64,000 nucleotides of DNA from Rathayibacter sp. VKM Ac-2857 (GTDB lineage: Bacteria > Actinomycetota > Actinomycetes > Actinomycetales > Microbacteriaceae): positions 62,001-126,000 of the forward strand of contig NZ_JABMLE010000004.1 of NCBI RefSeq assembly GCF_013205025.1. The letters are read 5' to 3'. The notes beneath the pieces were generated by a model. It saw only the letters and a program-made list of their open reading frames with translations. It was not told the origin of the DNA and did no database searches. A program made the translations under genes and the position numbers. Positions 287 to 16,731 of this stretch are shown piece after piece (within the stretch, counting starts at the first letter, position 1; each line of letters begins with the position of its first letter).

Positions 287-1180
287 ATGCCCGAGACCCT
301 CGACATCGTCCACCTGCGCACGCTCGTGGCGATCGCCGACTGCGGGGGCTTCGGCCGGGCGGCGGTGGCGCTGCACATCAGCCAGCCGACCGTCTCGCAG
401 CACGTCCGCACCCTCGAGCGGCGCCTCGAGCGCACCTTCATCGAGAAGGTCGGGCGCAGGGCCCGCTTCACGCCGGCCGGCGAGCGGCTCCTGGTGCAGG
501 CCCGCCGGATTTTGGCGGTGCACGACGACGCGCTCGAGCTGCTCGACGCGGCGAGCGAGAACCCGCTCGCCCTCGGCCTGACCGAGCCGGCCGCGGAGCA
601 GCTGCTGCCCCGCCTGCTCGAGACGCTGCACCGCGCCTTCGACGACCGCCCGCTCACCTTCACACTCGACCGCTCCACTCACCTGGCGGAGGCGGTGGCG
701 CGGGGCGTCGTCGATCTCGCGGTCATCCTCGGCGTGGGCGGCGACCTGCCGGGCCGCCAGGTCGCGACGCTGCCGCTCGACTGGTACTCGGCACCCGGCT
801 GGCAGCCGCCGGAGGGCGCGCCGATCCCGCTCGTCGCCTACTCCGAGCCGTGCGGGATGCGACAGCGCGCGCTGCAGCAGCTCGGCGCCTTCGGTCACGA
901 GGTGCGGGTGGTCGCCGAGTCGGCGGGGTTGGAGGGCGTGATCGCGGCGGCCCGCGCCGGTGTCGGAGTCGCGGTGCTGCCGACCGCGCACCGCGGCACG
1001 GTCGCCGAGGGACTCGTCGAGCGGCACGACCTGCCGGCGCTCGGCTCGGTCAACCTGCGCCTGGTCTCGCGGCGCGGTCTGGCTCCGGACGTCGAGGACA
1101 CGGCGCTCACTGCGCTCGCGGAGGTCTTCGGCACGGTGCGGGCACGGCCGGTCGCGGTACCCGCGGGCGCGCGAGTGTGA
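287..1180 (+). CDS. LysR-family transcriptional regulator
   Basis: At 297 residues it has the usual LysR length. Residues about 8-67 form the winged helix-turn-helix (LRTLVAIADCGGFGRAAVAL, then HISQPTVSQHVRTLERRL), followed by a periplasmic-binding-protein-like effector domain to about residue 290. The start is the only ATG before the HTH and is preceded by a leaderless-type -10. It lies directly upstream of, and co-directional with, the sulfur-type monooxygenase and importer cluster, so it probably controls that cluster. The effector is unknown; an organosulfur compound or a cysteine precursor would be typical of LysR proteins in this setting (inference). Confidence 0.9.
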   Translation: MPETLDIVHLRTLVAIADCGGFGRAAVALHISQPTVSQHVRTLERRLERTFIEKVGRRARFTPAGERLLVQARRILAVHDDALELLDAASENPLALGLTEPAAEQLLPRLLETLHRAFDDRPLTFTLDRSTHLAEAVARGVVDLAVILGVGGDLPGRQVATLPLDWYSAPGWQPPEGAPIPLVAYSEPCGMRQRALQQLGAFGHEVRVVAESAGLEGVIAAARAGVGVAVLPTAHRGTVAEGLVERHDLPALGSVNLRLVSRRGLAPDVEDTALTALAEVFGTVRARPVAVPAGARV

Positions 1181-1221
1181 CCTCCGTCGCCGGTCGCCGG
1201 CGCGGGTGTGACGAAGAGTTA

Positions 1222-1268
1222 CCAACGATCGGGATCGCCGATCGGAACGCATCCGGAATCATCGTTGG
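1222..1268 (+). promoter_or_regulatory. Inverted-repeat operator upstream of the monooxygenase cluster
   Basis: CCAACGAT (1222-1229) is repeated exactly in inverted form as ATCGTTGG (1261-1268). Inside lies a second palindrome, CGATCGG (1226-1232) against CCGATCG (1238-1244). The right outer arm overlaps the putative -35 (TTGGAC, 1265-1270). Paired sites ending at the -35 are typical of LysR activators, so this is a good candidate binding site for the regulator at 287-1180. Confidence 0.55.
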
Positions 1269-1295
1269 ACGCCCGGAGCACCTCGCCCGTAGCGT
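1265..1295 (+). promoter_or_regulatory. Promoter of the leader ORF and monooxygenase cluster
   Basis: TTGGAC (1265-1270) and TAGCGT (1290-1295) are separated by 19 bp. The -10 ends 7 nt before an ATG at 1303, the geometry of leaderless transcripts. The main monooxygenase gene begins about 360 nt further down, so its mRNA would carry a long leader containing a small ORF. Confidence 0.55.
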
Positions 1296-1302
1296 CGGAG
1301 CC

Positions 1303-1476
1303 ATGACGTTCCCGCCCGCCCTCACCGCCGCCGCGCCGCCCGGCGCGACCGGTGCAGCGAGCCGCGGGAGCATCGGCGTCCTCGGCTCCGCAGGTCGGAT
1401 GCCCGGCACTCGAATGTCCTCGGACGGGAACCCCTTCGCGCCGGTGCGCGGATGTTCCTGTCCGGTCTCCCGCTGA
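1303..1476 (+). CDS. Possible leaderless leader peptide ending in Cys-Ser-Cys
   Basis: A 57-codon ORF begins 7 nt after a -10 element and ends RGCSCPVSR-stop. Both cysteines are TGT (1452-1454 and 1458-1460), although this genome otherwise almost always uses TGC. A shorter version could start at ATG 1414 (20 residues). Known mycobacterial leaderless uORFs with consecutive Cys codons attenuate sulfur genes in response to cysteine; this ORF has the same layout with a weaker Cys run. Whether it is translated is unproven, and the upstream part of the ORF looks like ordinary GC-rich filler. Confidence 0.4.
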   Translation: MTFPPALTAAAPPGATGAASRGSIGVLGSAGRMPGTRMSSDGNPFAPVRGCSCPVSR

Positions 1477-1650
1477 CGCCTCCGCGTCGCCCGACTCCTC
1501 CGCCCGACGACCGGCACCAGCCGCCCCCGTCCCGGCCTCTGCGCGCCGCCGCCCGCCTCCGCGGCCGCCGCGCGTCCCTCTCTCGGCGCCGTCCCGCGCT
1601 CCTCCGGCGTGCCCGCGCGCCTCCCCGGTGCGCCTCCGCACCCTCTCGAA
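1477..1650 (+). promoter_or_regulatory. C-rich untranslated leader, possible Rho-utilisation region
   Basis: The 184 nt between the leader ORF stop and the monooxygenase ATG are dominated by C over G, with runs such as CCGCCCCCGTCCC, and show no convincing intrinsic terminator hairpin. C-rich, unstructured RNA after a short leader ORF is what Rho-dependent attenuation needs. The Shine-Dalgarno for the next gene (AAAGGA, 1649-1654) lies at its end. This is inference only. Confidence 0.3.
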
Positions 1651-1660
1651 AGGACCTCCC

Positions 1661-2833
1661 ATGACCGTCGAGTTCATCTCCGCGATCAACGTCAACCACT
1701 CGAACGAGGTCAACGGCCTGGCCGACCCGGCCATCGACGTGGCCTACCTGCGCCGCTACTCCCGGATCCTCGAGGACGGCGGCTTCGACTACACGCTGGT
1801 GCCCTACGGCTCGGCCGGGCACGACCCGTTCACGATCGCCGCCGCGGTGACCCAGTACACCGAGCACCTGAAGCCGATCGTCGCGCTGCGGCCCAACACG
1901 GTCTACCCGACCGTCGCGGCGAAGGCGCTCGCCACCCTCGACCAGCTCTCGGGCGGCCGGGCCGTCGTGCACTTCATCGCCGGCGGGAACGACCACGAGC
2001 AGGCCCGCGAGGGCGACCGGCTGAGCAAGGCCGAGCGCTACGCCCGGCAGGAGGAGTACCTCCGCATCCTCCGGAAGGTCTGGTCGGCGACCGAGCCGTT
2101 CGACCACGAGGGGGAGTACTACCGCTTCGAGGACTTCGTCTCGCGGGTGCGGCCGGTGCGCGGCACCATCCCGATCTCGGTCGGCGGCTCGAGCGACGAG
2201 GCCTACCGCCAGGGCGGCGCGCTCGCGGACGTCTTCGGCCTCTGGGGCGAGCCGCTGGCCGACACCCAGCAGCAGATCGACCGGATCGCGGACGCGGCGC
2301 TCGCCGCCGGCCGCGCCGACACCCCGCGCACCTGGGTCACCTTCCGGCCGATCATCGCGCCGACCGAGGAGCTCGCCTGGGAGAAGGCGCACCGGATCCT
2401 CGGCATCCTGCAGAGCCGCGGCGGCACGACGAACCCGCGCAAGGGCGAGAAGGGGCTCTGGGTGCAGACGCCGAGCGCCACCGGCCCGGCGAACGTCGGC
2501 TCGCAGCGCCTGCTCGACATCGCGCGGCGGAAGGACCTGCACGACCGCGCGCTCTGGACGCCGACCGCGACCGCGACCGGGGCGGCCGGCGCCTCCACCG
2601 CGCTCGTCGGCACGCCGGAGACGGTCGCCGCGGCGATCCTCGACTACGTCGACCTCGGCGCCGACCTGATCTCGATCCGCGGCTACGACAACCTGAACGA
2701 CGCGGTCGACTACGGCCGGTACGTCATCCCGCTGGTCCGCGAGGAGCTCGCGCACCGCGAGGCGACCGGGCGCCGCGGCGAGATCGTCGCGCAGCCGCCG
2801 CTCGAGGCCGAGCTGGCCGGGGCGATCGCGTGA
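1661..2833 (+). CDS. SsuD-like LLM flavin-dependent monooxygenase
   Basis: The 390-residue protein has the bacterial luciferase-like TIM-barrel fold. Its middle (RPNTVYPTVAAKALATLDQL, then GGRAVVHFIAGG and the RYARQEEYLRILRKVW stretch) closely follows alkanesulfonate monooxygenase SsuD, which uses FMNH2 and O2 to release sulfite from sulfonates. ATG 1661 has AAAGGA at good spacing; in-frame starts further upstream would lie in the leader. It overlaps the next gene by 4 nt (GTGA), so the two are probably co-translated. The substrate may be a sulfonate, thioether or other organosulfur compound. Desulfonation itself is inferred from family and context. Confidence 0.85.
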   Translation: MTVEFISAINVNHSNEVNGLADPAIDVAYLRRYSRILEDGGFDYTLVPYGSAGHDPFTIAAAVTQYTEHLKPIVALRPNTVYPTVAAKALATLDQLSGGRAVVHFIAGGNDHEQAREGDRLSKAERYARQEEYLRILRKVWSATEPFDHEGEYYRFEDFVSRVRPVRGTIPISVGGSSDEAYRQGGALADVFGLWGEPLADTQQQIDRIADAALAAGRADTPRTWVTFRPIIAPTEELAWEKAHRILGILQSRGGTTNPRKGEKGLWVQTPSATGPANVGSQRLLDIARRKDLHDRALWTPTATATGAAGASTALVGTPETVAAAILDYVDLGADLISIRGYDNLNDAVDYGRYVIPLVREELAHREATGRRGEIVAQPPLEAELAGAIA

Positions 2834-4035
2834 CGCTGCTCACGGGACCCGCCGCCACGGTCCGCCCCGCCGCCGTCATCCTGCCCGCGCCCGACCTCTC
2901 CGACCGCGCGCTCGCCCGGGTCACCGTCCGCCTGGCCGAGACCGCCGAGCACTACGACCGCACCGCCGAGTTCCCCCGGCAGGGGATCCAGGCGGTGCAC
3001 GAGGCGGGACTGCTCTCCCTCGGAGTCGGCACCCGCTACGGCGGCACGCCCGCCTCCACCGTCGACCTCGTCCGCGTCTTCGGCGCGCTCGGCCAGGGCG
3101 ATCCGGCGGTCGCGCTGATCTCGGCGATGACCGTGCTGCAGCACGCCGCGCAGGACCGCGCTGCGCTCTGGCCGGAGGAGCTCTACCGCTCGGTGCTCGC
3201 CGACTCCGCCGAGCGCCCCGTGCTGCTCAACGCGGTGCGCGCCGAGCCCGAGTGGGGCGCTCCCGCCCGGGGCGGCCTGCCTGCCACCACGATCCGCCGC
3301 GACGGCGACGGCTGGCTGCTCGAGGGCCGCAAGGGCTTCGCCACCGGCTCGGAGGGGCTGGCGTACCACCTGGTCTGGGCAGTCGATCACGGCGGCGCGT
3401 CGGGCGAGCCCGAGCTCGCGCACGCGATCGTGCCCGGCGATGCCGCGGGCGTCCGGATCGAGCGGACCTGGGACCACCTGGGCCAGCGGGCCTCGAGCAC
3501 GCACGACGTGGTCTACGAGCAGGTCCGCCTGCCGCTCGAGCACTTCCGCGGCACGCCCCGCTCGCAGCTCGCGCCCGAGGCCGGAGCGGCCGGCGGCTTC
3601 GGCCTCGCCGTCGCGGCGCTCTACGTCGGCGTCGGACGGGCGGCGCAGAGCTTCTTCGTGCGCTTCGCGAACGAGCGGGTCCCGACCTCGCTCGGCCGGC
3701 CGATCGCCACCACGGAGCGGATCCGCTCGGTCGCCGGCGAGATCCAGGCGCAGCTGGTTCAGGCCGAGGAGGTGCTGCTCTCGCTGGCCGCGCGAGTGGA
3801 CGCGGGTGATCCGCGCGCCGCCGAGCGCCTCATCGTCGGCAAGCTGCTCGCCACCCGCTCGGCCGTCACCGCGGTCGAGACGGCCGTCGCCGCGCTCGGC
3901 AACCCCGGTCTCACCCGCCACCACCCGCTCGAGCGGCACCTCCGCGATGTCCTCGCCTCCCGGGTGCACCCGCCGCAGGACGACGCCGCCCTCCTGATCG
4001 CCGGCACGCGCTCGCTCGCGGCCGCCGCGCTCTGA
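2830..4035 (+). CDS. Acyl-CoA-dehydrogenase-fold flavin monooxygenase (SfnB/DszC-like)
   Basis: The GTG start overlaps the previous stop by 4 nt, giving 401 residues. The protein has the N-terminal helical, middle beta and C-terminal helical layout of acyl-CoA dehydrogenases. Pairing with an SsuD-like enzyme is typical of the SfnB/DszC branch, which uses reduced flavin and O2 on sulfur compounds such as dimethyl sulfone or dibenzothiophene rather than oxidising acyl-CoA. Motifs include GRKGFATGSEGLAYHLVWAV in the flavin-contacting middle domain and a C-terminal helical bundle ending near residue 395. The operon position supports sulfur oxidation; the exact substrate is unknown. Confidence 0.78.
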   Translation: MTLLTGPAATVRPAAVILPAPDLSDRALARVTVRLAETAEHYDRTAEFPRQGIQAVHEAGLLSLGVGTRYGGTPASTVDLVRVFGALGQGDPAVALISAMTVLQHAAQDRAALWPEELYRSVLADSAERPVLLNAVRAEPEWGAPARGGLPATTIRRDGDGWLLEGRKGFATGSEGLAYHLVWAVDHGGASGEPELAHAIVPGDAAGVRIERTWDHLGQRASSTHDVVYEQVRLPLEHFRGTPRSQLAPEAGAAGGFGLAVAALYVGVGRAAQSFFVRFANERVPTSLGRPIATTERIRSVAGEIQAQLVQAEEVLLSLAARVDAGDPRAAERLIVGKLLATRSAVTAVETAVAALGNPGLTRHHPLERHLRDVLASRVHPPQDDAALLIAGTRSLAAAAL

Positions 4036-4080
4036 CAGCCCCGCACTCCGACACCCCCGCTCTTCGACACCCCGCACTTC
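4034..4080 (+). repeat. Short tandem repeat, about 16 bp x 3
   Basis: Units at 4034-4049, 4050-4065 and 4066-4080 follow GACASCCCCGCNCTYC, with a decayed fourth start after that. They fill most of the 72-nt gap between the second monooxygenase and the binding protein. The function is unknown; this may be spacer DNA grown by slippage. Confidence 0.5.
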
Positions 4081-4107
4081 GACTTCTCTGCACGGGAGAC
4101 CACCCTC

Positions 4108-5781
4108 ATGACGTTCCACCGCTCACGCTCCTTCCGACGATCCGGCACCGCCGCCGCCGCGCTCGCCCTCGCCTCCGCGCTGGCCCTCTCCGCCTGCTCG
4201 GGCGCCTCGGGCGCGGGCGCCGTCTCCGACGACGCGACCCCCGTCGACGGCGGCCGGCTCTCGCTGGCCTTCTTCCCCGACAACGCCGCGTTCTCCTGCG
4301 TCGACCCGTTCCAGACCTACTGGATCGAGCACCGCACCGTGATCCGCAACGTCGCCGACTCGCTCACCGACCAGGATCCGGAGACCGGCGAGATCCAGCC
4401 CTGGCTCGCGACCGACTGGAGCGTCAACGACGCGGGCACCGAGTACACCTTCGACCTGCGCACCGACGTCACCTTCTCCGACGGCACGCCCTTCACCGCG
4501 GAGAGCGTGAAGACCTCGTTCGACAACGACAAGGCCACCCTCGCGCAGCTGCCCTCGGCCTACGGAGGCGTCTACCTCGCCGGCTACTCGGGCACGGAGG
4601 TCGTGGACGCCGACACCGTGAAGGTCGTCTTCTCCACGCCGAACGCCGCGTTCCTGCAGGGCACCTCGACCACCAACCTCGCGATCCTCGCCGCCTCCTC
4701 GTACGAGAAGACGCCCGAGGAGCGCTGCCTCGGTGGGATCGTCGGCTCCGGCCCGTTCACGCTGACCGGCTACACCCCCGGTACCGGCATCACGCTGGAC
4801 AGGCGTCCGGGCTACGCCTGGGGCTCGGCCCTGCGCGAGAACACCGGGGAGGCGCACCTCGACGGGATCGACATCAGCTACGTCGCCGAGGACAGCGTCC
4901 GCGTCGGGCAGCTGACCAGCGACGAGATCGACATCGCCTGGCCGCGGAACCCGATCTCGGAGAACGACCAGGCCGTGATCACCGGCTCCGGCGACACCGT
5001 CGTGAGCCGCTCGCTGCCGGGCCCCGCGAGCAACTACTACCCGAACGTCGCCGAGGGGAAGATCCTCTCGGACGAGAGGGTGCGGCAGGCCGTGCAGAAG
5101 GCGATCGACCGCGAGACCTACGCGACGACCGTCTTCGGCGCCGGCTACCCGGCCGCGACCAGCATCTACAACACCACCACGCCGTTCTTCAAGGACGAGT
5201 CGTCGAAGCTCGCCTTCGACGCCGAGGGCGCGGGCGAGCTGCTGGACGAGGCGGGCTGGGAGCTCGGCGACGACGGCTACCGCTCGAAGGACGGGCAACG
5301 GCTCACGCTGTCGGTGCCGATCGTCACCCAGTTCGGCGCCGGTGATCAGCTGATCCAGGACCAGCTGAAGCAGGTCGGCATCGAGCTCGAGCTGAACGTG
5401 ATCACCAACGCCCAGCGCGCCGACGTGCTCAACAGCGGCGACTACGACCTGATCTCGACCTACTACACGCGGGCCGATCCGGGAGTGATCCAGTGGATCA
5501 TCGACTCCCGGTACGCCGGCTCGAAGGCGCAGGCGACGAACGGCCTCGACGCCGAGCAGGCCGCGACCGTGCAGGCCCTGCTCGACGAGGGCGTGCAGAC
5601 GGTCGACACCGCGGCCCGCGCCGAGGTCTACGGCGAGCTGCAGGACTACCTCATCGACAATGCACTGGTCTTCCCGTTCGCCGAGCGGGTGCAGCTGGCG
5701 GGCGTCTCGTCGGCGGTGCACGGCTTCCGCTTCACCTCGGAGGCGTTCGGCGACTTCGCCGACGCCTGGATCCAGCCGTGA
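4108..5781 (+). CDS. ABC importer substrate-binding lipoprotein, peptide/nickel (DppA/OppA) type
   Basis: The 557-residue protein starts with a basic region, a hydrophobic core and the lipobox LSAC (Cys about residue 31), so it is anchored to the outer face of the membrane. The rest is an SBP_bac_5 domain: DGTPFTAESVKTSFD, the hinge region, and a C-terminal lobe with GDYDLISTYYTRADPG. Such proteins bind peptides, opines, glycosides or metal chelates. Here the ligand is probably the organosulfur substrate of the two upstream monooxygenases (inference). GGGAGA lies 8-10 nt before ATG 4108. The stop overlaps the permease start. Confidence 0.9.
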   Translation: MTFHRSRSFRRSGTAAAALALASALALSACSGASGAGAVSDDATPVDGGRLSLAFFPDNAAFSCVDPFQTYWIEHRTVIRNVADSLTDQDPETGEIQPWLATDWSVNDAGTEYTFDLRTDVTFSDGTPFTAESVKTSFDNDKATLAQLPSAYGGVYLAGYSGTEVVDADTVKVVFSTPNAAFLQGTSTTNLAILAASSYEKTPEERCLGGIVGSGPFTLTGYTPGTGITLDRRPGYAWGSALRENTGEAHLDGIDISYVAEDSVRVGQLTSDEIDIAWPRNPISENDQAVITGSGDTVVSRSLPGPASNYYPNVAEGKILSDERVRQAVQKAIDRETYATTVFGAGYPAATSIYNTTTPFFKDESSKLAFDAEGAGELLDEAGWELGDDGYRSKDGQRLTLSVPIVTQFGAGDQLIQDQLKQVGIELELNVITNAQRADVLNSGDYDLISTYYTRADPGVIQWIIDSRYAGSKAQATNGLDAEQAATVQALLDEGVQTVDTAARAEVYGELQDYLIDNALVFPFAERVQLAGVSSAVHGFRFTSEAFGDFADAWIQP

Positions 5782-6818
5782 CCGCGCTCGGCTCGGCCCC
5801 GGCGGCGGTGGCTCCGGAGACGGCACCGGGGAGGCCGGGCACCCGCTCGGCCCCCTCGGGCCTCGGCCGCTACCTGATCGGCCGGCTCGGCCAGGCGGTG
5901 CTGGTGCTCTGGGCCGCCTACACCGTGACCTTCGCGGTGCTGTGGCTGCTGCCGAGCGACCCGCTGGCGCTCCTGCTCTCGGCCAACAACGTCGAGGTGG
6001 ACTCGCTCACCCCGCAGCAGCTCGCCGAGGCCCAGGCGCGCTACGGCCTGGACCAGCCGGTCTGGCAGCAGTACGCGACGATGCTCGGCAACGCGCTGCG
6101 GGGCGACTTCGGCACCTCGATCACCAAGGGCATCCCGGTCACCGACCTGATCGCCGAGAAGCTGCCCGGCACCCTGCAGCTCAGCGCCCTGGCGATCGGC
6201 CTCGCGCTGATCGGCGGCACGGTGCTCGCCTACCTGGCGGCGTACGTCCGCTGGGCGCCGCTGAAGACGGTGCTCGGCCGGCTGCCCTCCGCGGGCGTGG
6301 CGTTCCCCGGCTTCTGGATCGGCCTGCTGCTCATCCAGTTCTTCGCCTTCTCGCTGCACCTGCTGCCCTCCACCGGCAGCGCGACCCCGGCGAGCCTGAT
6401 CCTGCCGGCGGTCACCATGGCGATCCCCACCTCGGCGATGCTCGCCCAGGTGCTGATCCGCAGCTTCGCGGACGTCGAGGCGGAGGCCTACATCACCACG
6501 GCCCGCGCCAAGGGCCTCTCCCGCGGCGCGGTGCAGTGGCGGCACGCCTTCCGCAACGCCTCGCTGCCGACGCTGACGATCCTCGGGATCCTGGCCGGCA
6601 ACACCGTCACGGGAGCGATCGTCGCCGAGACGATCTTCGCCCGGCAGGGCATCGGCACGCTCGCCCAGGAGTCGGTGCTCACCCAGGACGTGCCGGTCGT
6701 CCAGGCGATCGTCGTGCTGGCGGCCGTCGTGTTCGTCGGCATCAACCTCCTGGTCGACCTGCTCTACCCCCTCCTCGATCCGCGCATCACCTCGACACCG
6801 AAGGCGAGCCGACCATGA
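5778..6818 (+). CDS. ABC importer permease, DppB type
   Basis: The GTG start (GTGA overlap with the binding-protein stop) gives 346 residues. After a polar N-terminal tail of about 35 residues come six predicted membrane helices, the first at about residues 37-58. The conserved cytoplasmic coupling loop of this family is present (YITTARAKGLSRGAVQWRHA). DppB-type subunits pair with a DppC subunit, which follows immediately. The next gene overlaps by 4 nt (ATGA). The protein is complete with no sign of damage. Confidence 0.92.
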   Translation: MTALGSAPAAVAPETAPGRPGTRSAPSGLGRYLIGRLGQAVLVLWAAYTVTFAVLWLLPSDPLALLLSANNVEVDSLTPQQLAEAQARYGLDQPVWQQYATMLGNALRGDFGTSITKGIPVTDLIAEKLPGTLQLSALAIGLALIGGTVLAYLAAYVRWAPLKTVLGRLPSAGVAFPGFWIGLLLIQFFAFSLHLLPSTGSATPASLILPAVTMAIPTSAMLAQVLIRSFADVEAEAYITTARAKGLSRGAVQWRHAFRNASLPTLTILGILAGNTVTGAIVAETIFARQGIGTLAQESVLTQDVPVVQAIVVLAAVVFVGINLLVDLLYPLLDPRITSTPKASRP

Positions 6819-7707
6819 CTCTCGAACTCACCCGGCCCGAAGCGCTCGTCGTCCCCGAGCCGCTCACCCGCGCGGCGCACGGCCGGGGTGCCCGCCGCGT
6901 GCGGATCCTCCGCCTGCTGCTGCGCCGTCCGGGCTTCGTCCTGGCGCTGGTCTTCGTGCTGTTCGTCCTGGCCTCGGCGATCGCTCCGGCGCTCTTCACC
7001 GGTGTCGACCCGACGGCGACCGCGCCGGCCGACAAGCTGCAGGCGCCGAGCCTCGTGCACCTCTTCGGCACCGACGAGCTGGGCCGCGACCTGTTCGCGC
7101 GGGTCCTGCACGGCGGGGCGCTGACGGTGCAGGCGACGGTGATCGCTCTCGCGATCGCCCTGGTCGGCGGGCTGACGCTCGGCGTGGTCTCCGGCTCCGC
7201 GGGCGGAGTGGTGGACGCGGTGATCATGCGCGTGGTGGACGTGCTGCTCGCGATCCCCGGGCTGCTTCTCGCCCTGGCGATCGTGACGGCGATCGGCTTC
7301 GGCACGCTGCCGGTGGCGCTCGCCGTGGGCATCGGCATCCTGCCCGGCTTCGCGCGCACCACCCGCGCCGAGGTGCTCCGGGTGCGCACGCTGCCCTACG
7401 TCGAGGCCGCGCGCACCGGAGGGGCGAGCCGGCTGCGCGTGCTCGTGCGGCACGTGCTGCCCAACTCCTGGGGGCCGGTCGCCGTGCTGGCCGTGCTCGA
7501 TCTCGGCACCGCGATCATCGCGATCGCCGCGCTGAGCTTCCTCGGCTTCGGCGCGGCGCCGCCCGCGGCGGAGTGGGGGACGCTGATCTCCAGCGGCCGC
7601 AACTACCTCGTCACCAGCCCGTGGCTGTCGCTGCTGCCGGGGCTCTTCGTCGGGCTCCTCGTCTTCGCGCTCAACCACGTGGCCAAGAGCCTCGAGGAGG
7701 TGCAGCG

Positions 7708-7711
<4 letters not shown>
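6815..7711 (+). CDS. ABC importer permease, DppC type
   Basis: ATG overlaps the previous TGA by 4 nt; the product has 298 residues. It carries the N-terminal OppC_N helix (RPGFVLALVFVLFVLASAIA), the LFGTDELGRDLFARVLHG motif typical of DppC/OppC, and a coupling loop (LPYVEAARTGGASRLRVLVR). Together with the preceding DppB-type subunit it forms the membrane channel of the importer. Its stop overlaps the start of the ATPase gene by 4 nt, so the whole transporter appears translationally coupled. Confidence 0.92.
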
Positions 7712-9335
<1,624 letters not shown>

Positions 9336-9339
<4 letters not shown>

Positions 9340-10322
9340 GCGGCCGGTTCCTCGTGATCGGCGGCGGCGCCGTCGGCTCCGTCCTCGCGGCGCAGCTACA
9401 CCTGGCCGGGCAGCCGGTCGTGCTCGTGGCGCGCGGGGAGCACCTGCGGCTCCTCCGCGAGAACGGGCTGCGGGTGCGCCGACCCGCGGGCGACGAGATC
9501 GTGCGGCTGCCCGTCGCGGGCGGCCCCGCGGAGGCGGCGCCGGCGCGCGGGGACGTCCTCGTGCTCGCGGTGAAGGCGCAGGACGCGGAGGCGGCGCTCG
9601 CCGAGTGGGCCTGGACGCCGCTCGCCGGGGGAGGGGCCGGCGCCGAGCTGCCGGTGCTGACCCTGCAGAACGGACTCGCCACCGAGGACAGCGCGCTGCG
9701 CCGCTTCGCCGCGGTCTACGGGGTGTCGATCGGCATCGCCGCGAGCTTCCTGGTGCCCGGCGAGGTCGTCTCGCCCTCCTTCCCGACCGTCGGCGTGCTC
9801 TGGATCGGCCGGCACCCCGACGCCGCCGATCCGCGCGCGGAGGAGTACGCCGCGATCCTCCGCGGCGCCGGCTTCGCCGCCCGCGCCGTGCCCGACATCG
9901 GCGCCTGGAAGGCCCGCAAGCTGCTCGCCAACGCGGCCAACGGCCTCGACCTCTTCGAGGGCCCGGCCGAGCAGCGCGCCGCCGCGCGCGAGCTGCTCGT
10001 CGCGGAGGCGCGCGCCGCCCTCGCCGCGAACGGCCTCGCGGTCGCTCCCGACGACGGCACCCGCCTCGCCGTCGAGCCCGTACCCGGCCACACCGCCGGC
10101 CGGCTGTCGACCTGGCAGAGCGCCGCCCGCGGCACGAGCAGCGAGATCGACCACCTCACCGGCGAGATCGTCCTGCTCGCCCGCCGCGCCGGCGTGCCCG
10201 CCCCTCTGAACGAGCGCCTGCAGCTCCTGCTCGGCCTGCACGGCCGCGCCGCGGCCGCCGCGCCGCTCCCCCTCGCGGACCTGCTCGACCCCGCCGCTGC
10301 GGCGCTCACGTCGGTCGAGTAG
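9336..10322 (+). CDS. Ketopantoate-reductase-like NAD(P)-dependent 2-oxoacid reductase
   Basis: The GTG start (GTGA overlap) gives 328 residues. A Rossmann nucleotide-binding motif opens the protein (GGGAVGSVLAAQL), followed by VKAQDAEAALAEW and LQNGL, both typical of the ApbA/PanE fold. A C-terminal helical domain contains the ARKLLANAANGL stretch. Because it sits at the end of a translationally coupled transporter operon and not beside panB/panC, I expect a catabolic role on another 2-oxo or 2-hydroxy acid, not pantothenate synthesis (inference). Its last codons and TAG stop (10320-10322) lie inside a truncated copy of the palindromic repeat. Confidence 0.8.
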
Positions 10323-10435
10323 CCCGCGCTCATGCCGTCGAGTAGCCCCGTCCTCATGCCGCCGAGTAGCCCGGTCCTCATGCCGTCGAGTAGCCGCACC
10401 AGGCCGTCCTCATGCTGGTCGAGCAGCCCCGTCCT
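10314..10435 (+). repeat. Tandem array of truncated repeat half-units
   Basis: Five successive copies of GTCGAGYAGCC followed by a CATGC-like end run directly into a full element, with a spacing of about 24-32 bp. They look like slippage or recombination copies of the outer end of the palindromic repeat family. Confidence 0.8.
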
Positions 10436-10544
10436 CATGCTGGTCGAGTAGCCCCGCAGGGGCGTATCGAGACCCACCGTCGCCCGCACTACTGCCCAAG
10501 GCGGATCTCGATACGCCCGCTGCGCGGCCTACTCGATCAGCATG
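10436..10544 (+). repeat. Palindromic intergenic repeat, full copy (109 bp)
   Basis: The left end is CATGCTGGTCGAGTAG and the right end CTACTCGATCAGCATG, an imperfect terminal inverted repeat. Each arm carries an inner hairpin (GCCCCGCAGGGGC on the left) and the motif GTATCGAGACCC or its complement. The interior between the arms is about 20 bp shorter than in the other full copies. Confidence 0.9.
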
Positions 10545-10570
10545 CACTCCGCCCCCACGCAGGCCCCGGT

Positions 10571-10655
10571 GCATGTCGGTCGAGCAGCCCGTGCATGTCG
10601 GCCGAGCAGCACTTCCATGTTGGTCGAGTAGCCCCGCAGGGGCGTATCGAGACCC
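10571..10655 (+). repeat. Truncated repeat units plus one half element
   Basis: Two short units (GCATGTCGGTCGAGCAGCCC and a diverged second one) precede a half element at 10616-10655 with CATGTTGGTCGAGTAG, the GCCCCGCAGGGGC hairpin and GTATCGAGACCC. No right half is present before the next gene. Together with 10314-10544 this fills the whole 387-bp gap. Confidence 0.85.
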
Positions 10656-10709
10656 ACCCCCTCCGCACCCTCACCCTCCCGTCCGCCCGCCCGAACAAGG
10701 AGCCCTCCC

Positions 10710-11432
10710 ATGCCCCTCACCCACCCGCCCACCGCCCCCACCACGGCCACCGCCGCCCGCACCTTCGACGAGCCCGAGGGCATCGCCCCCCGCGGCACCC
10801 TCGTCGTCCTCGGCGGCCGCGGCGAGACCCCCGCCGTCTACGAGCGCTTCGGCACCCGCATCGCCCGCGACGCCTACCGCGTCCGCGCCTTCGGCGACGC
10901 GACGGCCCCCGGGGTCCGCGACGCCGCGCTCGCCGTCCTCCGCGACCCCGCGACCACCGCGCCGCTCGTGCTCGTCGGCTCCGACGCCGGCGCGGCCGTC
11001 GCCCTCGAGCTCGCCGCGTCGGAGCCGGTCGACGCCGTCGTCCTCGCCGGCCTGCCCGTGCGCGCCGAGGGCGGCGAGGGGATCGGCGAGCGGACCGCCT
11101 GCCCGAACCACGCCGGCGTCCTCGAGCGCGAGACCGACTCCGCCGCGCGCGACGCCGCCCTCCCGCCCGAGCTGCTCGCGGTCGCCGCGAGCGCCGTCGC
11201 CGTCCCGCTGCTCGCGCTGCACGGCGCGGCCGACGCGATCAGCCCGCTCGCGGAGGCGGTCGCCGTCTACCGCACCGCCCCGCGGGCCGAGATCCACGTC
11301 CTCGCCGACGGCCGCCACGACGCGCTGAACGACGCGACGCACCGCTCGGCCGCCGCGACGGTGATCCTGTTCCTCGAGCGGGTGAAGGCGTCGGCCGCCG
11401 CCGCGCCGATCATCGAGCGGGTCGCGGAGTGA
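10710..11432 (+). CDS. Alpha/beta-hydrolase with aspartate at the nucleophile position
   Basis: The 240-residue protein fits the alpha/beta-hydrolase fold. The nucleophile elbow reads GSDAG, placing Asp92 where esterases have Ser. A second acid lies in HGAADAIS (Asp175) and the catalytic His in DGRHD (His203). Asp nucleophiles are known in haloalkane and fluoroacetate dehalogenases, so a dehalogenase or C-X bond-cleaving role is possible; a non-catalytic or lyase role is also possible. AAGGAG (10697-10702) sets the start. Its stop overlaps the GTG of the FAD oxidase, so it belongs to the second half of the sulfur-type cluster. Confidence 0.75.
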   Translation: MPLTHPPTAPTTATAARTFDEPEGIAPRGTLVVLGGRGETPAVYERFGTRIARDAYRVRAFGDATAPGVRDAALAVLRDPATTAPLVLVGSDAGAAVALELAASEPVDAVVLAGLPVRAEGGEGIGERTACPNHAGVLERETDSAARDAALPPELLAVAASAVAVPLLALHGAADAISPLAEAVAVYRTAPRAEIHVLADGRHDALNDATHRSAAATVILFLERVKASAAAAPIIERVAE

Positions 11433-12811
11433 GCGCGCTCGCCCCCGCTGTCGATCCCGCTGTCGACAACGCCGACGCCCCCGCCCTCGACCCCGCCGAC
11501 GCGCCCGTCGCGATCACCGCCGACGTCCCCACCGCCGACCGCTCCGGCTGGTCGCCCGGCGGCACCCCGCTCGGCGTCGTGCGCGCCCGCACGGTCGACG
11601 ACGTCCGCGCCGCGCTCCGGCACGCCTCCGCCCACGGCATCCCCGTCGTCACCCGCGGCGCCGCCTCCGGGCTCGCCGGCGGCGCCAGCGCGGGCGAGGG
11701 CGTCCTCGTCCTCGACGTCTCGGGCCTGGACCGCATCCTCGAGATCGACCCCGTCGACGGCGTCGCCCGCGTCGAGCCGGGCGTCATCACCGCCGATCTC
11801 GATCGCGCCGCCGCCGTGCACGGCCTCCTCTACGCCCCGGACCCCGGCAGCGTCGAGATCGCGACGATCGGCGGCACCATCGCCACCAACGCCGGCGGCC
11901 TGCGCGGCGCGAAGTACGGAGTCACGCGCGACGCGGTCCTCGCGCTCGACGTCGTCCTGGCCGACGGCTCGCTCGTCCACCTCGGCCGCGACACCGTGAA
12001 GGGCGTCGTCGGCCTCGACCTCACCGCGCTCGTCGTCGGCTCCGAGGGCAGCCTCGGCGTTGTGGTCGGCGCGACCCTCCGCCTGCTGCCCCGGCCGCGA
12101 GCGACCGCGACCGCCGCCGCCTTCTTCGCCGACGTGGCCGCGGGCGCCGAAGCCGCCGTCGCCCTCGCCCGCGCAGGACTGCGCCCGAGCGTCCTCGAGC
12201 TGGTCGACGACCGCACGCTCGAGGCCATCGACGCCCTGCGCGGCTCGACCCTGGCCGGCCGCGGCGGCGCCTTCCTCCTGGTGCAGACCGACGGCTTCGG
12301 CGCCGCCGAGGAGATCGCCGAGGTGCGCGCGGTGCTCGCCGCGACCGCGCTCAGCGTCGAGACCACCCTCGACCCGGCCGAGGGCCTCGCCCTCGCGAGC
12401 GCCCGCCGTGACGCCCTGCCCGCGATCGAGGCCCGCGGCCGCGTGCTGATCGAGGACATCGCCGTGCCCCGCTCCCGCCTCGCCGAGGCGATCCGCCGCG
12501 TGCACGCGATCGCCGCGGACACCGGCGCCGACGTCTACGTCTTCGCCCACGCCGGCGACGGCAACCTCCATCCGATCATCCGCCTGCGCGACGACACGGA
12601 GCAGTCCCGCCGCCAGGCCGACACCGCGGCCGAGGCCGTCTTCGCGCTCGCCCTCGAGCTCGGCGGCACCGTCAGCGGCGAGCACGGCGTCGGCGCCCTC
12701 AAGCGCGACTGGGCCCGCCGCGAGCTCGGCCCCGACGTCGTCGCCCTGCAGCGCGCGGTGCAGCGGGTCTTCGATCCGCAGGGCATCCTGAATCCCGGTA
12801 CCGCGCTGTGA
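11429..12811 (+). CDS. FAD-linked oxidase of the glycolate/D-lactate dehydrogenase (GlcD) family
   Basis: The GTG start (GTGA overlap) gives 460 residues. An N-terminal PCMH-type FAD-binding domain includes TRGAASGLAGGA and PGSVEIATIGGTIATNAGG. The C-terminal FAD-oxidase domain contains FAHAGDGNLHPII and SGEHGVGALKRDW, which are strongly conserved in GlcD and D-lactate dehydrogenases. Such enzymes oxidise 2-hydroxy acids to 2-oxo acids. The gene downstream is a mercaptopyruvate-type sulfurtransferase, so a sulfur-bearing lactate such as 3-mercaptolactate is a tempting substrate (inference). The first 25 residues are a low-complexity Ala/Asp/Pro segment. Confidence 0.87.
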   Translation: MSALAPAVDPAVDNADAPALDPADAPVAITADVPTADRSGWSPGGTPLGVVRARTVDDVRAALRHASAHGIPVVTRGAASGLAGGASAGEGVLVLDVSGLDRILEIDPVDGVARVEPGVITADLDRAAAVHGLLYAPDPGSVEIATIGGTIATNAGGLRGAKYGVTRDAVLALDVVLADGSLVHLGRDTVKGVVGLDLTALVVGSEGSLGVVVGATLRLLPRPRATATAAAFFADVAAGAEAAVALARAGLRPSVLELVDDRTLEAIDALRGSTLAGRGGAFLLVQTDGFGAAEEIAEVRAVLAATALSVETTLDPAEGLALASARRDALPAIEARGRVLIEDIAVPRSRLAEAIRRVHAIAADTGADVYVFAHAGDGNLHPIIRLRDDTEQSRRQADTAAEAVFALALELGGTVSGEHGVGALKRDWARRELGPDVVALQRAVQRVFDPQGILNPGTAL

Positions 12812-12834
12812 GCGCACCCCTCGAGAGGACCGAC

Positions 12835-13689
12835 ATGACCACCACCCTCCGCTCCGACGTGCTCGTCACCCCCGACGAGCTGGAGGCGGCGCTCGCGTCG
12901 CCCGAGCCCCCGCTCGTCCTCGACGTGCGCTGGCGCCTCGACCGGCCCGACGGCCGCCCCGCCTACCTCGAAGGCCACGTCCCCGGTGCCGGCTACGTCG
13001 ACCTCGACCACGAGCTCGCCGCGCACGGCGCTCCGGAGGACGGCCGCCACCCCCTGCCGCCGATCGAGGTGCTGCAGGAGTCGGCGCGCCGCTGGGGACT
13101 GCGCCAGGGCCAGGCCGTCGTCGTCTACGACGACCTGAAGAACCTCTCCTCCGCCCGCGCCTGGTGGCTGCTGCGCGCCGCCGGAGTCGCCGACGTGCGC
13201 CTCCTCGACGGCTCGCTGCGCGCCTGGACCGGCTCGGGTCGTGCGTTGGAGGCCGGCCCCGTGGAGCCTGTGGGCGGGGACGTCGAGCTGGCCTACGGCG
13301 CCCTGCCGGTGCTCGACATCGACGAGGCCGCTGCGCTCCCGTCCACCGGCGTCCTCCTCGACGCCCGCGCCCCCGAGCGCTACCGCGGCGACGTCGAGCC
13401 GATCGACCCCCGCGCCGGCCACATCCCCGGCGCTCTGAACGCCCCCGCGACCGGCAACGTCGACGCCGACGGCCGCTTCCTCGACGCCGCCGTCCTGCGC
13501 GCCCGCTTCGAGGAGCTCGGCGTCCGCCCCGACGCCCCCGTCGGCGTCTACTGCGGCTCCGGAGTGACCGCCGCCGTCGACGCCGTCGCCCTCACCCTCG
13601 CCGGCTTCGCCCCCGCCCTCTACCCCGGCTCCTGGTCCCAGTGGTCGAACACGGCCGGCCGCCCCGTCGCCACGGGCCCGGACGCCTAG
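12835..13689 (+). CDS. Sulfurtransferase, two rhodanese domains (thiosulfate/3-mercaptopyruvate type)
   Basis: From ATG 12835 (GAGAGGA 6 nt upstream) the protein has 284 residues; a GTG at 12808 overlapping the previous stop is a weaker alternative. Two rhodanese domains are visible: an inactive N-terminal one (residues about 9-130, LVLDVRW) and a catalytic C-terminal one with the loop CGSGVTA (Cys240), the form seen in 3-mercaptopyruvate sulfurtransferases. It moves sulfane sulfur from thiosulfate or mercaptopyruvate to an acceptor. Its place at the end of the monooxygenase/importer cluster supports an organosulfur pathway. Confidence 0.88.
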   Translation: MTTTLRSDVLVTPDELEAALASPEPPLVLDVRWRLDRPDGRPAYLEGHVPGAGYVDLDHELAAHGAPEDGRHPLPPIEVLQESARRWGLRQGQAVVVYDDLKNLSSARAWWLLRAAGVADVRLLDGSLRAWTGSGRALEAGPVEPVGGDVELAYGALPVLDIDEAAALPSTGVLLDARAPERYRGDVEPIDPRAGHIPGALNAPATGNVDADGRFLDAAVLRARFEELGVRPDAPVGVYCGSGVTAAVDAVALTLAGFAPALYPGSWSQWSNTAGRPVATGPDA

Positions 13690-13696
13690 CCCCCTC

Positions 13697-13795
13697 CTGC
13701 TGGTCGAGCGGCGCGCAGCGCATACCCTGCCGGTCGAGCAGCGCGCAGCGCACCCCTCCTGCCGGTCGAGTAGCGCGCAGCGCGTATCGAGACCC
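13697..13795 (+). repeat. Truncated and half copies of the palindromic repeat, GCGC-hairpin variant
   Basis: Two truncated units and a half element (13758-13795) carry the inner hairpin as GCGCGCAGCGCG, where other copies have GCCCCGCAGGGGC. Pairing is kept despite the sequence change. Confidence 0.85.
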
Positions 13796-13813
13796 ACCCT
13801 CCGGGGGCCGGCC

Positions 13814-13989
13814 CCGCTTCGGGTCTCGTTGGTGAGGGAAAGGACACGGCGACGCCGCGTCATGCTGGTCGAGTAGCCCCGCAGGGGCGTATCGAGACCC
13901 GCCACCACCAGCAGAGCGGGTCTGCAGACTCGCGTTCTGACGGTGGTGGATCTCGATACGCCCGCACCGCGGGCTACTCGATCAACATG
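13814..13989 (+). repeat. Palindromic repeat, long form (47-bp extension plus 129-bp element)
   Basis: The core element spans 13861-13989 with CATGCTGGTCGAGTAG at the left and CTACTCGATCAACATG at the right. The interior contains CGGGTCTGCAGACTCG and CTGACGGTGGTGGATC. The 47 bp before it (CCGCTTCG, then GGTGAGGGAAAGGAC) match the 47 bp before the copy at 35233, so this subfamily has a longer form of about 176 bp. Confidence 0.88.
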
Positions 13990-14078
13990 ACTTTCCCCAT
14001 ACGTACTAGGTGATCTTTCCTACGAGACCCGCCCGCGACCAGAACATCTGCCGAGAGCCACTCACCGCTCATCACTCC

Positions 14079-14121
14079 GCAGAAGTCGTCGCAGCAGGCA
14101 CTCGAGCACGACGACTTCTGC
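14079..14121 (+). repeat. Second hairpin family, copy 1
   Basis: GCAGAAGTCGTCG (14079-14091) pairs perfectly with CGACGACTTCTGC (14109-14121), a 13-bp stem with a 17-nt loop. It shares the GCAGAAGT outer sequence with the two hairpins that follow. Confidence 0.75.
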
Positions 14122-14164
14122 GTACTCGCGGCCTCCCGGGCCGTCAGCGCCTCCGACACCTCCA

Positions 14165-14198
14165 AAGTTGCGGTAGTCGCGTCCGGCTACCGCAACTT
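14165..14198 (+). repeat. Second hairpin family, copy 2
   Basis: AAGTTGCGGTAG (14165-14176) pairs with CTACCGCAACTT (14187-14198), a perfect 12-bp stem with a 10-nt loop (TCGCGTCCGG). TCTGC follows on the right as in the neighbouring copies. Confidence 0.8.
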
Positions 14199-14259
14199 CT
14201 GCGGAGTCGCCGTCGCCGCGTGCGCCCGCGTCGTGCTCGCTCCGCCGCCGATTCAGCAG

Positions 14260-14293
14260 AAGTTGCGGTAGTCGCGCTCGACTACCGCAACTT
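14260..14293 (+). repeat. Second hairpin family, copy 3
   Basis: AAGTTGCGGTAGTCG (14260-14274) pairs with CGACTACCGCAACTT (14279-14293), a perfect 15-bp stem with a 4-nt loop, and is preceded by CAGCAG. It lies 37 bp past the 3' end of the flavin reductase gene on the opposite strand and could end that transcript, although there is no T-run. Confidence 0.8.
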
Positions 14294-14329
14294 TCGAGGA
14301 GTGGGATGGGGCGGCGACGCCCGCCGGCG

Positions 14330-15239: not shown

Positions 15240-15668
15240 ATGGCCCACCGCCCCCGCGAGTCGAGCACCCGCCCCGAGAACAAGACCTGCGCCTCCTGCG
15301 GCCGCGAGATCGAGTGGCGCGCCAAGTGGGCGCGCGACTGGGAGAACGTCCGCTACTGCTCCGACGCCTGCCGCCGTCGCGGCGTCGGCCCGGAGGAGCA
15401 GCGCCTCGAGGAGGAGATCCGCACCGTCCTCCTCGCCCGCGCCGCGTCCTCCACCGCCTGCCCGTCCGAGGTCGCCCGCCGCGTCGGGGGAGAGGAGTGG
15501 CGGCCGCTGATGGAGCCGGTCCGCCGCGCCGCCCGCCGCCTCGTCGACCGCGGCGAGATCGACATCGTCCAGGGCGGGCAGATCGTCGATCCGTCGCGCG
15601 CGAAGGGCCCGATCCGCCTGCGCCGCCGCCCCGGCGGGCCCCTGTCGCCCGGCGGCGCCGCCAGCTAG
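15240..15668 (+). CDS. DUF2256/DUF3253 domain protein with a small zinc-finger-like motif
   Basis: The 142-residue protein begins with a basic tail and then [10 protein letters not shown] with CSDACRR, a four-cysteine zinc-ribbon-like DUF2256 motif (residues about 17-46). The rest ([24 protein letters not shown] to [13 protein letters not shown]) is a DUF3253 domain that resembles a winged helix. The start is preceded by CAGACT, a weak -10 7 nt away, so the mRNA may be leaderless. Its function is unknown; the fold suggests nucleic-acid or protein binding. The next gene starts 11 nt after its stop. Confidence 0.8.
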
Positions 15669-15671
15669 CCT
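15666..15671 (+). promoter_or_regulatory. -10 element TAGCCT before the polymerase-domain gene
   Basis: TAGCCT overlaps the previous stop codon and ends 7 nt before ATG 15679, so the polymerase-domain gene may have its own leaderless transcript. Confidence 0.45.
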
Positions 15672-15678
15672 CGCTGAC

Positions 15679-16731
15679 ATGCCCAGCAGCGACGCCGTCG
15701 TCCTCACCGTTCCCGGACCGCACGGCGACCGGGAGGTGCGCCTCTCCAGCCCGGGCCGCGTGCTGTTCCCGGAGCCCGGCATCACCAAGCGCGAAGTGGC
15801 GGAGTACCTGATCGCGGTCGGCGAGGCCTTCGTCGCCGCCAACGGCGACCGGCCGATCTCGCTGCAGCGCTTCTCCTCCGGCATCGACGGCGACCAGTTC
15901 TTCTCGAAGAACCCGCCCAAGGGCGCCCCGGAGTACGTCCGCTCCGTCCCCGTCACCTACCCGAGCGGCCGCGTGCACCCGCAGCTCGTGATCGACGAGC
16001 CCGCCGTCGCCGTCTGGGCCGCGCAGATGAACACCCTCGTCTTCCACCCGTGGGCGTCCCGCGCCGAGGACTCCGACCGGCCCGACCAGCTCCGCATCGA
16101 CCTCGATCCGCAGCCGGGCACCGACATCGACGACGCCGTCCGCGCCGCCCACGCGCTCCGCGAGGTGCTGCGCGAGGCCGGCCTGGAGTCGTTCGTGAAG
16201 ACCTCCGGCAACCGCGGCCTGCACGTCTTCGCGCCGATCGTGCCCGAGCACGAGTTCCTCGACGTGCGGCACGCCGTCATCGCCGCCGCGCGCGAGCTGG
16301 AGCGGCGGATGCCCGAGCAGGTCACGACGGCGTGGTGGAAGGAGGAGCGCGGCGAGCGGATCTTCGTCGACTTCAACCAGGCCAACCGCGACCGCACGAT
16401 GGCCGGCGCCTACAGCCCGCGCCCGCTCGCGCACGCCCCCGTCTCCTGCCCGCTGGAGTGGGAGGAGCTGGACGGCGTCGACCCGACCGCCTTCACGATC
16501 CGCACCGTCCCCGAGCGCCTGAGCACGACCGGCGACCCCTGGGCCCGGATGCACGACGCGCCCGGCCGCCTCGACGTGCTGCTCGGCTGGTGGGAGCGCG
16601 ACCTCTCTGCGGGCCTGGGCGAGCTGCCCTTCCCGCCCGACTTCCCCAAGATGCCGGGGGAGCCGCCCCGCGTCCAGCCGAGCCGCGCGAAGAAGCCGGC
16701 GGCGGAGCCCGCGGAGGACGCCGCCGAGTAG
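15679..16731 (+). CDS. LigD-type DNA polymerase/primase domain protein (NHEJ polymerase)
   Basis: The 350-residue stand-alone protein corresponds to the polymerase domain of bacterial LigD. Visible motifs are FFSKNPPKGAPEYV, the catalytic pair in RIDLDPQPG, SGNRGLHVFAP and FVDFNQANRDRTMAGAYSPR. Such enzymes fill gaps with ribo- or deoxynucleotides at double-strand breaks and normally work with Ku and an ATP-dependent ligase. The ligase gene lies next door, convergent, with only 1 nt between the stops. No Ku gene is in the window. The last 25 residues are a Lys/Ala/Glu-rich tail. Confidence 0.9.
   Translation: MPSSDAVVLTVPGPHGDREVRLSSPGRVLFPEPGITKREVAEYLIAVGEAFVAANGDRPISLQRFSSGIDGDQFFSKNPPKGAPEYVRSVPVTYPSGRVHPQLVIDEPAVAVWAAQMNTLVFHPWASRAEDSDRPDQLRIDLDPQPGTDIDDAVRAAHALREVLREAGLESFVKTSGNRGLHVFAPIVPEHEFLDVRHAVIAAARELERRMPEQVTTAWWKEERGERIFVDFNQANRDRTMAGAYSPRPLAHAPVSCPLEWEELDGVDPTAFTIRTVPERLSTTGDPWARMHDAPGRLDVLLGWWERDLSAGLGELPFPPDFPKMPGEPPRVQPSRAKKPAAEPAEDAAE

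Follow-up and report, generated by a model that had tools for sequence, protein, structure and literature searches.

A putative organosulfur-scavenging operon with a candidate cysteine-codon attenuator in Rathayibacter

Gene content and organization of the locus

We analyzed a 64,000-nucleotide stretch of the genome of Rathayibacter sp. VKM Ac-2857 (8 contigs, 4.6 Mb), referred to here as the window (contig NZ_JABMLE010000004.1, positions 62,001 to 126,000 of the forward strand). At 287-13689 of the window lie 11 genes, all read from the + strand, whose predicted products point tentatively to an operon for the scavenging of organic sulfur (Table 1). Genes overlap by 4 nt at seven of the ten junctions, and the remaining three junctions are gaps of 480 nt (LysR-LLM), 72 nt (ACAD-SBP) and 387 nt (KPR-HYD). 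A first-pass annotation of this DNA had listed the genes from LysR to the sulfurtransferase as running in one direction, mostly with 4-nt overlaps. All of them were confirmed, positions included, although that inventory had overlooked a leader open reading frame (ORF) ahead of the operon and a convergent flavin reductase gene behind it.

Table 1. Positions of the operon genes and associated features in the window.
Feature	Position	Strand	Remark
LysR-family regulator	287..1180	+	TAGCGT box 6 nt 5' of ATG
Conserved inverted repeat CCAACGAT...ATCGTTGG	1222..1268		candidate LysR operator/promoter region, from alignment of 10 Rathayibacter leaders
TAGCGT, putative -10-like box	1290..1295	+	7 nt 5' of leader ORF
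57-codon leader ORF, end VRGCSCPVSR*	1303..1476	+	candidate cysteine-responsive attenuator
C-rich leader (C97 G46 T20 A6), 169 nt	1477..1645	+	possible Rho-loading stretch
LLM-class (luciferase-like) FMN-dependent monooxygenase (LLM), SsuD-like	1661..2833	+
SfnB/DszC-like flavin enzyme of acyl-CoA dehydrogenase fold (ACAD)	2830..4035	+
Peptide/nickel-type substrate-binding lipoprotein (SBP)	4108..5781	+
ABC permease 1, BPD_transp_1	5778..6818	+
ABC permease 2, BPD_transp_1	6815..7711	+
Double ABC ATPase, Dpp/Opp/Nik type	7708..9339	+
Ketopantoate-reductase-family NADP(H) oxidoreductase (KPR)	9336..10322	+
Alpha/beta hydrolase (HYD)	10710..11432	+	Asp at nucleophile position (GSDAG)
GlcD-type FAD 2-hydroxy-acid oxidoreductase (GlcD)	11429..12811	+
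Mercaptopyruvate-type sulfurtransferase (MST)	12808..13689	+	loop CGSGVTA; start codon uncertain
Flavin reductase, Pfam Flavin_Reduct PF01613	14330..14932	-	convergent to operon

Features of the operon proteins

The solved chains nearest to the LLM are of the MsuD type (154 bits) and the SsuD type (137 bits), and the protein misses the cut-offs of both TIGR03565 for SsuD/MsuD (175.9 of 518.2 bits) and TIGR04021 for SfnG (136.5 of 382.95 bits). The active-site Cys, Arg and His of SsuD (C54, R226 and H228) are changed in it. Additionally, the loop RGGA, described as the sulfonate-binding motif of MsuD and SsuD in PMC8234197, was found in none of 85 readable cluster LLMs, the window's included (one further row was masked). 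The window LLM has TGAAGASTALVG in its place, and the closer relatives have T[GN]A.GASTALVG.

ACAD misses the cut-offs for SfnB (TIGR04022; 90.6 of 430.9 bits) and DszC (NF043015; 34.2 of 850 bits), and its nearest solved chains are 5gj7/5z8t. When aligned with 5ol2, it has HPPQ at the YEGT stretch of true dehydrogenases, where their catalytic Glu presumably lies, and thus lacks that residue. The SBP comes nearest to TIGR04028 (KPN_01854) at 330.1 bits, below the cut-off of 468.5, and is of the same type as the binding protein of the KPN_01854 importer clusters. KPR misses TIGR00745 (132.4 of 141.35 bits) and retains, in alignment with 5ayv, the catalytic Lys and Glu of the family, while two other KPR-family genes of the genome outscore it against Pfam ApbA.

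The nucleophile pattern G-S-D-A-G of HYD is matched, always with Asp, by 70 of 74 relatives, the other 4 having no match to the pattern. Across an alignment of 31 sequences D92, D175 and H203 never vary, as expected of an Asp-Asp-His triad. A search of the PDB by sequence gave HYD only weak, generic alpha/beta-hydrolase matches. The nearest solved relative of GlcD is a glycolate oxidase (317 bits), followed by LctD and D-lactate dehydrogenases, although the protein misses the glycolate oxidase family TIGR00387 (361.5 of 567.9 bits). It keeps the motifs HAGDGNLH and SGEHGVG (aligned with 9qgz, which has TGEHGVG, and with 7qh2), presumably the metal-ligand motifs of the FAD 2-hydroxy-acid dehydrogenase family. 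The CGSGVTA loop of MST aligns with those of its best solved relatives, the 3-mercaptopyruvate sulfurtransferases 1urh and 3olh (the E. coli and human enzymes). MST scores 139.6 bits against NF008557, under the cut-off of 250, and has two more distant paralogues elsewhere in the genome.

A conserved leader ORF precedes the operon

The gap between the LysR and LLM genes was aligned across ten Rathayibacter loci, the window and L001-L009, and all ten share a block (1222-1303 in the window) that holds the inverted repeat and the TAGCGT box. VRGCSCPxS followed by a TGA stop is invariant in all ten, and in one locus a Gly and a Cys codon of the motif carry synonymous changes. RGCSCP codons also occur upstream of the LLM gene in L010, L011 and L012, by codon match alone, frame and stop aside. 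Since the TAGCGT box lies so close to its ATG, the leader ORF would itself be leaderless. Thus a short conserved ORF with Cys codons near its stop lies 5' of the operon, which is the arrangement expected of a cysteine attenuator.

PMC1262725 describes Cys-codon leaders ahead of cys genes in Mycobacterium, P. acnes and B. longum, and PMC13236596 cites attenuation of cysteine genes in M. smegmatis. The mycobacterial leader peptides Ms5788A and Ms4527A (NF042933/NF042936) are likewise short ORFs with Cys codons near the stop, but the Rathayibacter leader matches neither family. It has no match in NCBIfam (NF042933/34/36 included), and Rfam, at its gathering scores, matched nothing in the window. 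Among eight leaders scanned against curated families, two matched at all and six, including that of Rathayibacter, did not; the best relative, a Parafrankia leader, reached 24.1 bits against NF042933 (2.1e-5), below the cut-off of 45.

A different leader was found in other actinobacteria. It has the motif LT[QR]RR[VI][VI]D, reaches a stop within 24 residues and always contains at least one Cys. Of 100 loci, 58 have this leader on the strand of HYD and within about 0.7 kb 5' of it (56 of 97 after removal of three duplicate pairs), and none of 20 controls does. The Cellulomonas leaders of L079, L117 and L058 end CCCR, CACCCR and RCRCHR. Judging from these sequences, the operon is probably under LysR control combined with cysteine-codon attenuation and is probably switched on when cysteine is short.

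The gene set is conserved in a genus apparently unable to reduce sulfate

An orthologue of the LLM (at least 86% identity) is present in 12 of 14 same-genus genomes, in one of the 12 in two pieces. Eight of the 12 loci have all 11 genes in the same order with the flavin reductase convergent; L006 and L012 end at contig ends, both with broken frames; and L010 and L011 are rearranged. Because it is present in 12 of 14 Rathayibacter genomes, the gene set is not accidental. In the genomes of L010 and L011, MST (76-79%) lies at another place, directly 3' of a LysR relative, and in L156 and L157 LysR is paired with MST alone. Two genomes have no operon. In one, G002, all that is left is a fragment within another frame, next to the flavin reductase (L158, about 7396-7605), that matches roughly the C-terminal 75 residues of MST and is likely a relic of operon loss. 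The other, G001, has only distant sulfurtransferases.

We searched 13 Rathayibacter genomes (our own and G001-G012) for 3'-phosphoadenosine 5'-phosphosulfate/adenosine 5'-phosphosulfate (PAPS/APS) reductase and found none, while the same search was positive in all 14 control genomes. The sole protein of the sulfite/nitrite reductase family NIR_SIR in the genome is NirB (925.7 bits; cut-off 578.35), and a NirD gene adjoins it. Nine other Rathayibacter genomes have a single NIR_SIR match each, in a frame of 870-1391 residues, and G001, G002 and G006 have none. From its gene content the host seems unable to reduce sulfate, and these results suggest that the genus depends on reduced or organic sulfur. 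With no PAPS/APS reductase and no NIR_SIR protein beyond NirB, the cell would gain little from sulfite as an end product unless NirB can reduce it, whereas it could draw directly on a thiol or on sulfane sulfur. A literature search on missing sulfate reduction in Rathayibacter and Clavibacter returned no matching paper.

Related neighborhoods and a KPR-MST fusion in other actinobacteria

With E 1e-25 as the weakest match accepted, a HYD profile had hits in 48 of the 394 genomes searched from the class, and 20 of these places were fetched (L019-L038). A broader profile, run on the genomes of 84,980 species, gave 359 relatives, and the neighbors within about 10 kb of HYD were counted by bit-score thresholds for the best 80 of these 359. 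The 80 loci represent the best-scoring part only, some end early at contig ends, and many are from Streptomyces, so the counts are not independent. MST was found near HYD in 72 of the 80 loci, GlcD in 68, LLM in 66, LysR in 64, ACAD in 61, KPR in 22, the peptide-type SBP in 19 and a flavin reductase in 11; MST and GlcD occur together in 66. By comparison, 20 arbitrary 20-kb control stretches from the same genome sample gave 0 matches for 12 query families and 1 for SsuE.

Among 74 core loci carrying 18 genus labels, the cluster families recur under at least three labels, as do an NMT1/Ssu-type importer, an SsuE-type reductase and a second, larger LLM family. Recurrent families were named by similarity to cluster genes and, in a few cases, by Pfam; Pfam spot checks identified a permease, two NMT1-type binding proteins, FMN_red and Bac_luciferase. 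The first-pass annotation had proposed a check on whether the neighbors are conserved together, and they are. Its nine-gene set holds as a recurring association and fails as a fixed composition, since loci differ in KPR, in LysR, in the FMN reductase and in the type of importer. We also noted 83 genes for NMT1-type binding proteins, under four genus labels; in the Streptomyces locus L046, two different ones (13159-14127 and 15295-16302) flank the LLM gene.

KPR and MST co-occur in 26 of 101 loci examined, and in 15 of these 26 (14 distinct, L019 being identical to L095) they form one open frame of about 500-640 residues. Hosts of the fusion are Frankia, Parafrankia, Actinoplanes/Paractinoplanes, Pseudonocardia, Prauserella and further relatives. 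Because the two are fused in one frame, KPR and MST are suggested to carry out neighboring steps on one compound.

About half of L019-L038 are hydrolase loci of a second kind, whose LLM and importer are more distantly related and which have no MST, GlcD or KPR. The existence of this second kind limits the value of HYD alone as an indicator. Examples are L021, L022, L029, L106 and L118, which have an LLM at 47-49% and a dipeptide-type importer. L021 additionally encodes a CoA transferase, an enoyl-CoA hydratase and a 192-residue protein without a Pfam match. A gene of L021 had been judged by eye to be a cysteine-dioxygenase-like cupin, a label that was dropped as it has no Pfam match.

Plasmid-borne relatives in a second phylum

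The matches listed of 115 records include plasmid-borne LLM relatives (64-67% identity) from Rhizobium, Agrobacterium and Shinella. We read five such Rhizobiaceae loci (A. larrymoorei, R. etli twice, Shinella and R. leguminosarum). All five share with the operon the importer, LLM (64-67%), ACAD (44-46%) and KPR (44-48%), and differ from it in having TetR instead of LysR and an added DsbA-family protein; an MsuE-type FMN reductase is also present in each. A GlcD relative (32-34%) is found in four of the five. A C-terminal binding protein, which we take to be a relative of D-2-hydroxy-acid dehydrogenases, is annotated in three. Two carry a gene annotated as a molybdopterin S/N-oxide-reductase type (L120, 3067-5364; L123, 4791-7091), hinting at a sulfoxide. 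In one Paraburkholderia and one Acinetobacter plasmid cluster (L124, L126), LLM relatives at a greater distance (38-44%) stand beside an annotated cysteine dioxygenase and rhodanese, enzymes that handle thiols and sulfane sulfur, as would be expected if a thiol is released; further ABC importers and LysR are annotated there as well.

A proposed route and its alternatives

The reading we favor, to which we give slightly less than an even chance, is that of a sulfur-scavenging operon in which C-S cleavage would release a thiol that is converted to mercaptopyruvate and desulfurated by MST, under LysR control and cysteine attenuation. What the importer takes up would be an organosulfur compound, more likely a thioether or sulfoxide than a plain sulfonate. 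The SfnB/DszC-like enzyme would oxygenate the imported compound, and the LLM, using FMNH2 and O2, would break its C-S bond; the products would be an aldehyde or ketone and a sulfur compound, itself a thiol or reduced to one. HYD may take off an acyl or other group, before or after the oxygenation. The thiol would belong to the 2-hydroxy-3-mercapto acids, 3-mercaptolactate being an example; the GlcD-like enzyme would oxidize it to 3-mercaptopyruvate, and/or KPR would interconvert the two, and MST would split the 3-mercaptopyruvate into pyruvate and protein-bound sulfane sulfur. This last step would give reduced sulfur to a cell that has no dedicated sulfite reductase. We infer the mercaptolactate-mercaptopyruvate part from three observations: MST is of the mercaptopyruvate type, it is paired with 2-hydroxy-acid oxidoreductases, and it is fused to KPR in other genera.

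A narrower version of this reading is possible though rather unlikely. Here a distinct LLM subfamily would cleave compounds of the S-substituted 3-thiolactate type in a sulfate-independent sulfur route, with KPR-MST acting as mercaptolactate dehydrogenase/mercaptopyruvate desulfurase under cysteine-codon attenuation and a 2-hydroxy group replacing the N-acetyl group of the Bacillus pathway. Plant thiolactate conjugates were considered as a possible substrate, for which a literature search gave no support.

The organosulfur uptake and breakdown proposed in the first-pass annotation is supported independently by the Cys-codon leaders, the neighborhoods conserved in two phyla, the lack of a detectable PAPS/APS reductase and the exchange of parts for importers of the NMT1/Ssu type and FMN reductases of the SsuE/MsuE type. 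Of the two substrate classes that it had offered, thioether or sulfonate, the sulfonate is weakened by the missing RGGA loop and the lack of a sulfite reductase other than NirB.

Several results weigh against a mercaptopyruvate route under cysteine control. KPR was not seen in 58 of the 80 loci and GlcD not in 12, some of these loci being cut by contig ends; the 20 loci L019-L038 have MST in only 7, GlcD in 4, KPR in 8, LLM in 15 and ACAD in 8. The Streptomyces versions carry NMT1/Ssu-type importers, no match to HYD or MST was found in the five Rhizobiaceae stretches, and in L010 and L011 an SsuE-like FMN reductase occupies the MST slot, followed by a second LLM-ACAD-SBP copy. As to the leaders, the Rathayibacter motif has no second copy in the genome, and some of the 58 LT[QR]RR[VI][VI]D leaders contain a single Cys. 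The RGCSCP pattern matches once in the genome and a reversed control pattern three times, so rarity alone is no argument. Short ORFs with two Cys were found in 62 of 154 cases on the forward and 53 of 154 on the reverse strand, which does not discriminate, and the argument therefore rests on the conserved motifs. Additionally, 14 of 19 non-Streptomyces loci tested have no two-Cys leader before a core gene.

Because the closest solved relative of GlcD is a glycolate oxidase, GlcD may act on the carbon stump rather than on the sulfur part. In this alternative, which we consider unlikely, the LLM would cleave an S-carboxymethyl-like thioether to a thiol and glyoxylate or another 2-oxo acid, KPR would reduce and GlcD oxidize the C2/C3 acid as carbon leaving group, and MST or direct uptake would handle the sulfur. 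The Rhizobiaceae fit it, as they keep KPR (5/5) and GlcD (4/5) without MST, with the C-terminal binding protein in three. The KPR-MST fusion in other genera, however, points to a shared substrate, and this alternative leaves unexplained why a sulfur-scavenging operon should process a carbon stump. Less probable again is sulfonate assimilation of the Ssu/Msu kind, in which the LLM would release sulfite from an imported sulfonate (sulfolactate, for instance), the 2-hydroxy acid skeleton would pass to GlcD and KPR, and MST would handle sulfite or thiosulfate. SsuD/MsuD are indeed the closest relatives of the LLM in sequence, the Streptomyces loci have NMT1/Ssu-type importers, and SsuE/MsuE-like FMN reductases occur among the related loci. 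We down-weighted this explanation because all 85 readable LLMs lack the RGGA loop, the window LLM falling far below the SsuD/MsuD cut-off, and because sulfite reduction is missing, with neither a PAPS/APS reductase nor a NIR_SIR protein beyond NirB in the genome; it also leaves MST and the KPR-MST fusions unexplained.

A stepwise route of the Dsz/Sfn kind, with ACAD forming a sulfone, the LLM a sulfinate and HYD removing sulfite, is in our view very unlikely. The SfnB/DszC-like enzyme is present, and L027, L092, L104 and L109 combine two LLMs with one ACAD, similar to SfnG-MsuC-MsuD as described in PMC8234197. Nevertheless, ACAD misses both the SfnB and the DszC cut-offs, and the route would end in sulfite, of little use to Rathayibacter. 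Furthermore, HYD is an alpha/beta hydrolase, and DszB is unlike these. It is highly improbable that a xenobiotic or plant compound is broken down mainly for carbon with the sulfur genes attached; accessory genes do vary widely and second-kind hydrolase loci include a CoA transferase and an enoyl-CoA hydratase, but Cys-codon leaders precede the operon and MST is present in 72 of 80 loci.

Comparison with known systems

In its logic, the favored thiol-to-mercaptopyruvate reading is parallel to the S-alkylcysteine salvage of Bacillus by CmoO/CmoJ (and YxeK). According to PMC10863075, two flavoenzymes, CmoO and CmoJ, first oxidize and then cleave a thioether, and the thiol returns to cysteine metabolism. 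In the operon, by contrast, the presumed S-oxygenase has the acyl-CoA-dehydrogenase fold and GlcD/KPR and MST are added; no N-acetyltransferase or deacetylase was among the families recurring under at least three genus labels in the 74 core loci. With Pseudomonas sfn/msu and E. coli ssu the locus shares an LLM monooxygenase, an SfnB/MsuC-like enzyme, an FMN reductase and an importer, and it differs in lacking the RGGA loop, in missing the SsuD, SfnG and SfnB cut-offs and in adding MST, GlcD, KPR and HYD. The first-pass annotation had known no named pathway with this set, in agreement with our literature search, which found no description of it, subscription literature lying mostly outside its reach. 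The accessible parts of the nearest papers describe other genes: PMC5157978 (catabolism of 4,4'-dithiodibutyric acid, DTDB), PMC11852219 (dibenzothiophene, DBT, in Gordonia), PMC7661421 (per- and polyfluoroalkyl substances, PFAS, in Gordonia) and PMC8557817 (IGTS8 proteome).

These results suggest that sulfur scavenging by an uncharacterized route is widespread among bacteria of soil and plants, and they offer a possible answer to how a genus with no detectable PAPS/APS reductase is supplied with sulfur. Several unspecific annotations (LLM, acyl-CoA dehydrogenase, 2-dehydropantoate reductase, FAD-linked oxidase, rhodanese and hydrolase) would thereby find their place in a single process that probably has a cysteine sensor built in. 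Where KPR and MST are fused, one purified enzyme would suffice to test the central step.

Flanking and intergenic features

The convergent flavin reductase is a plausible, not exclusive, supplier of FMNH2. It had been considered a strict part of the operon, an assignment that was dropped since G002, without the operon, has one too. A long inverted repeat at 14152-14306 (arms of 72 nt, 81% complementary, 11 nt apart) adjoins its gene. The gap inside the operon (10323-10709) and its 3' flank (13690-13990) are filled with interspersed GGTCGAGTAGCCCCGCAGGGGCGTATCGAGACC-type repeats that occur in both orientations. Two more luciferase-like monooxygenase matches lie in the window at 39774-40631 and 41964-42836.

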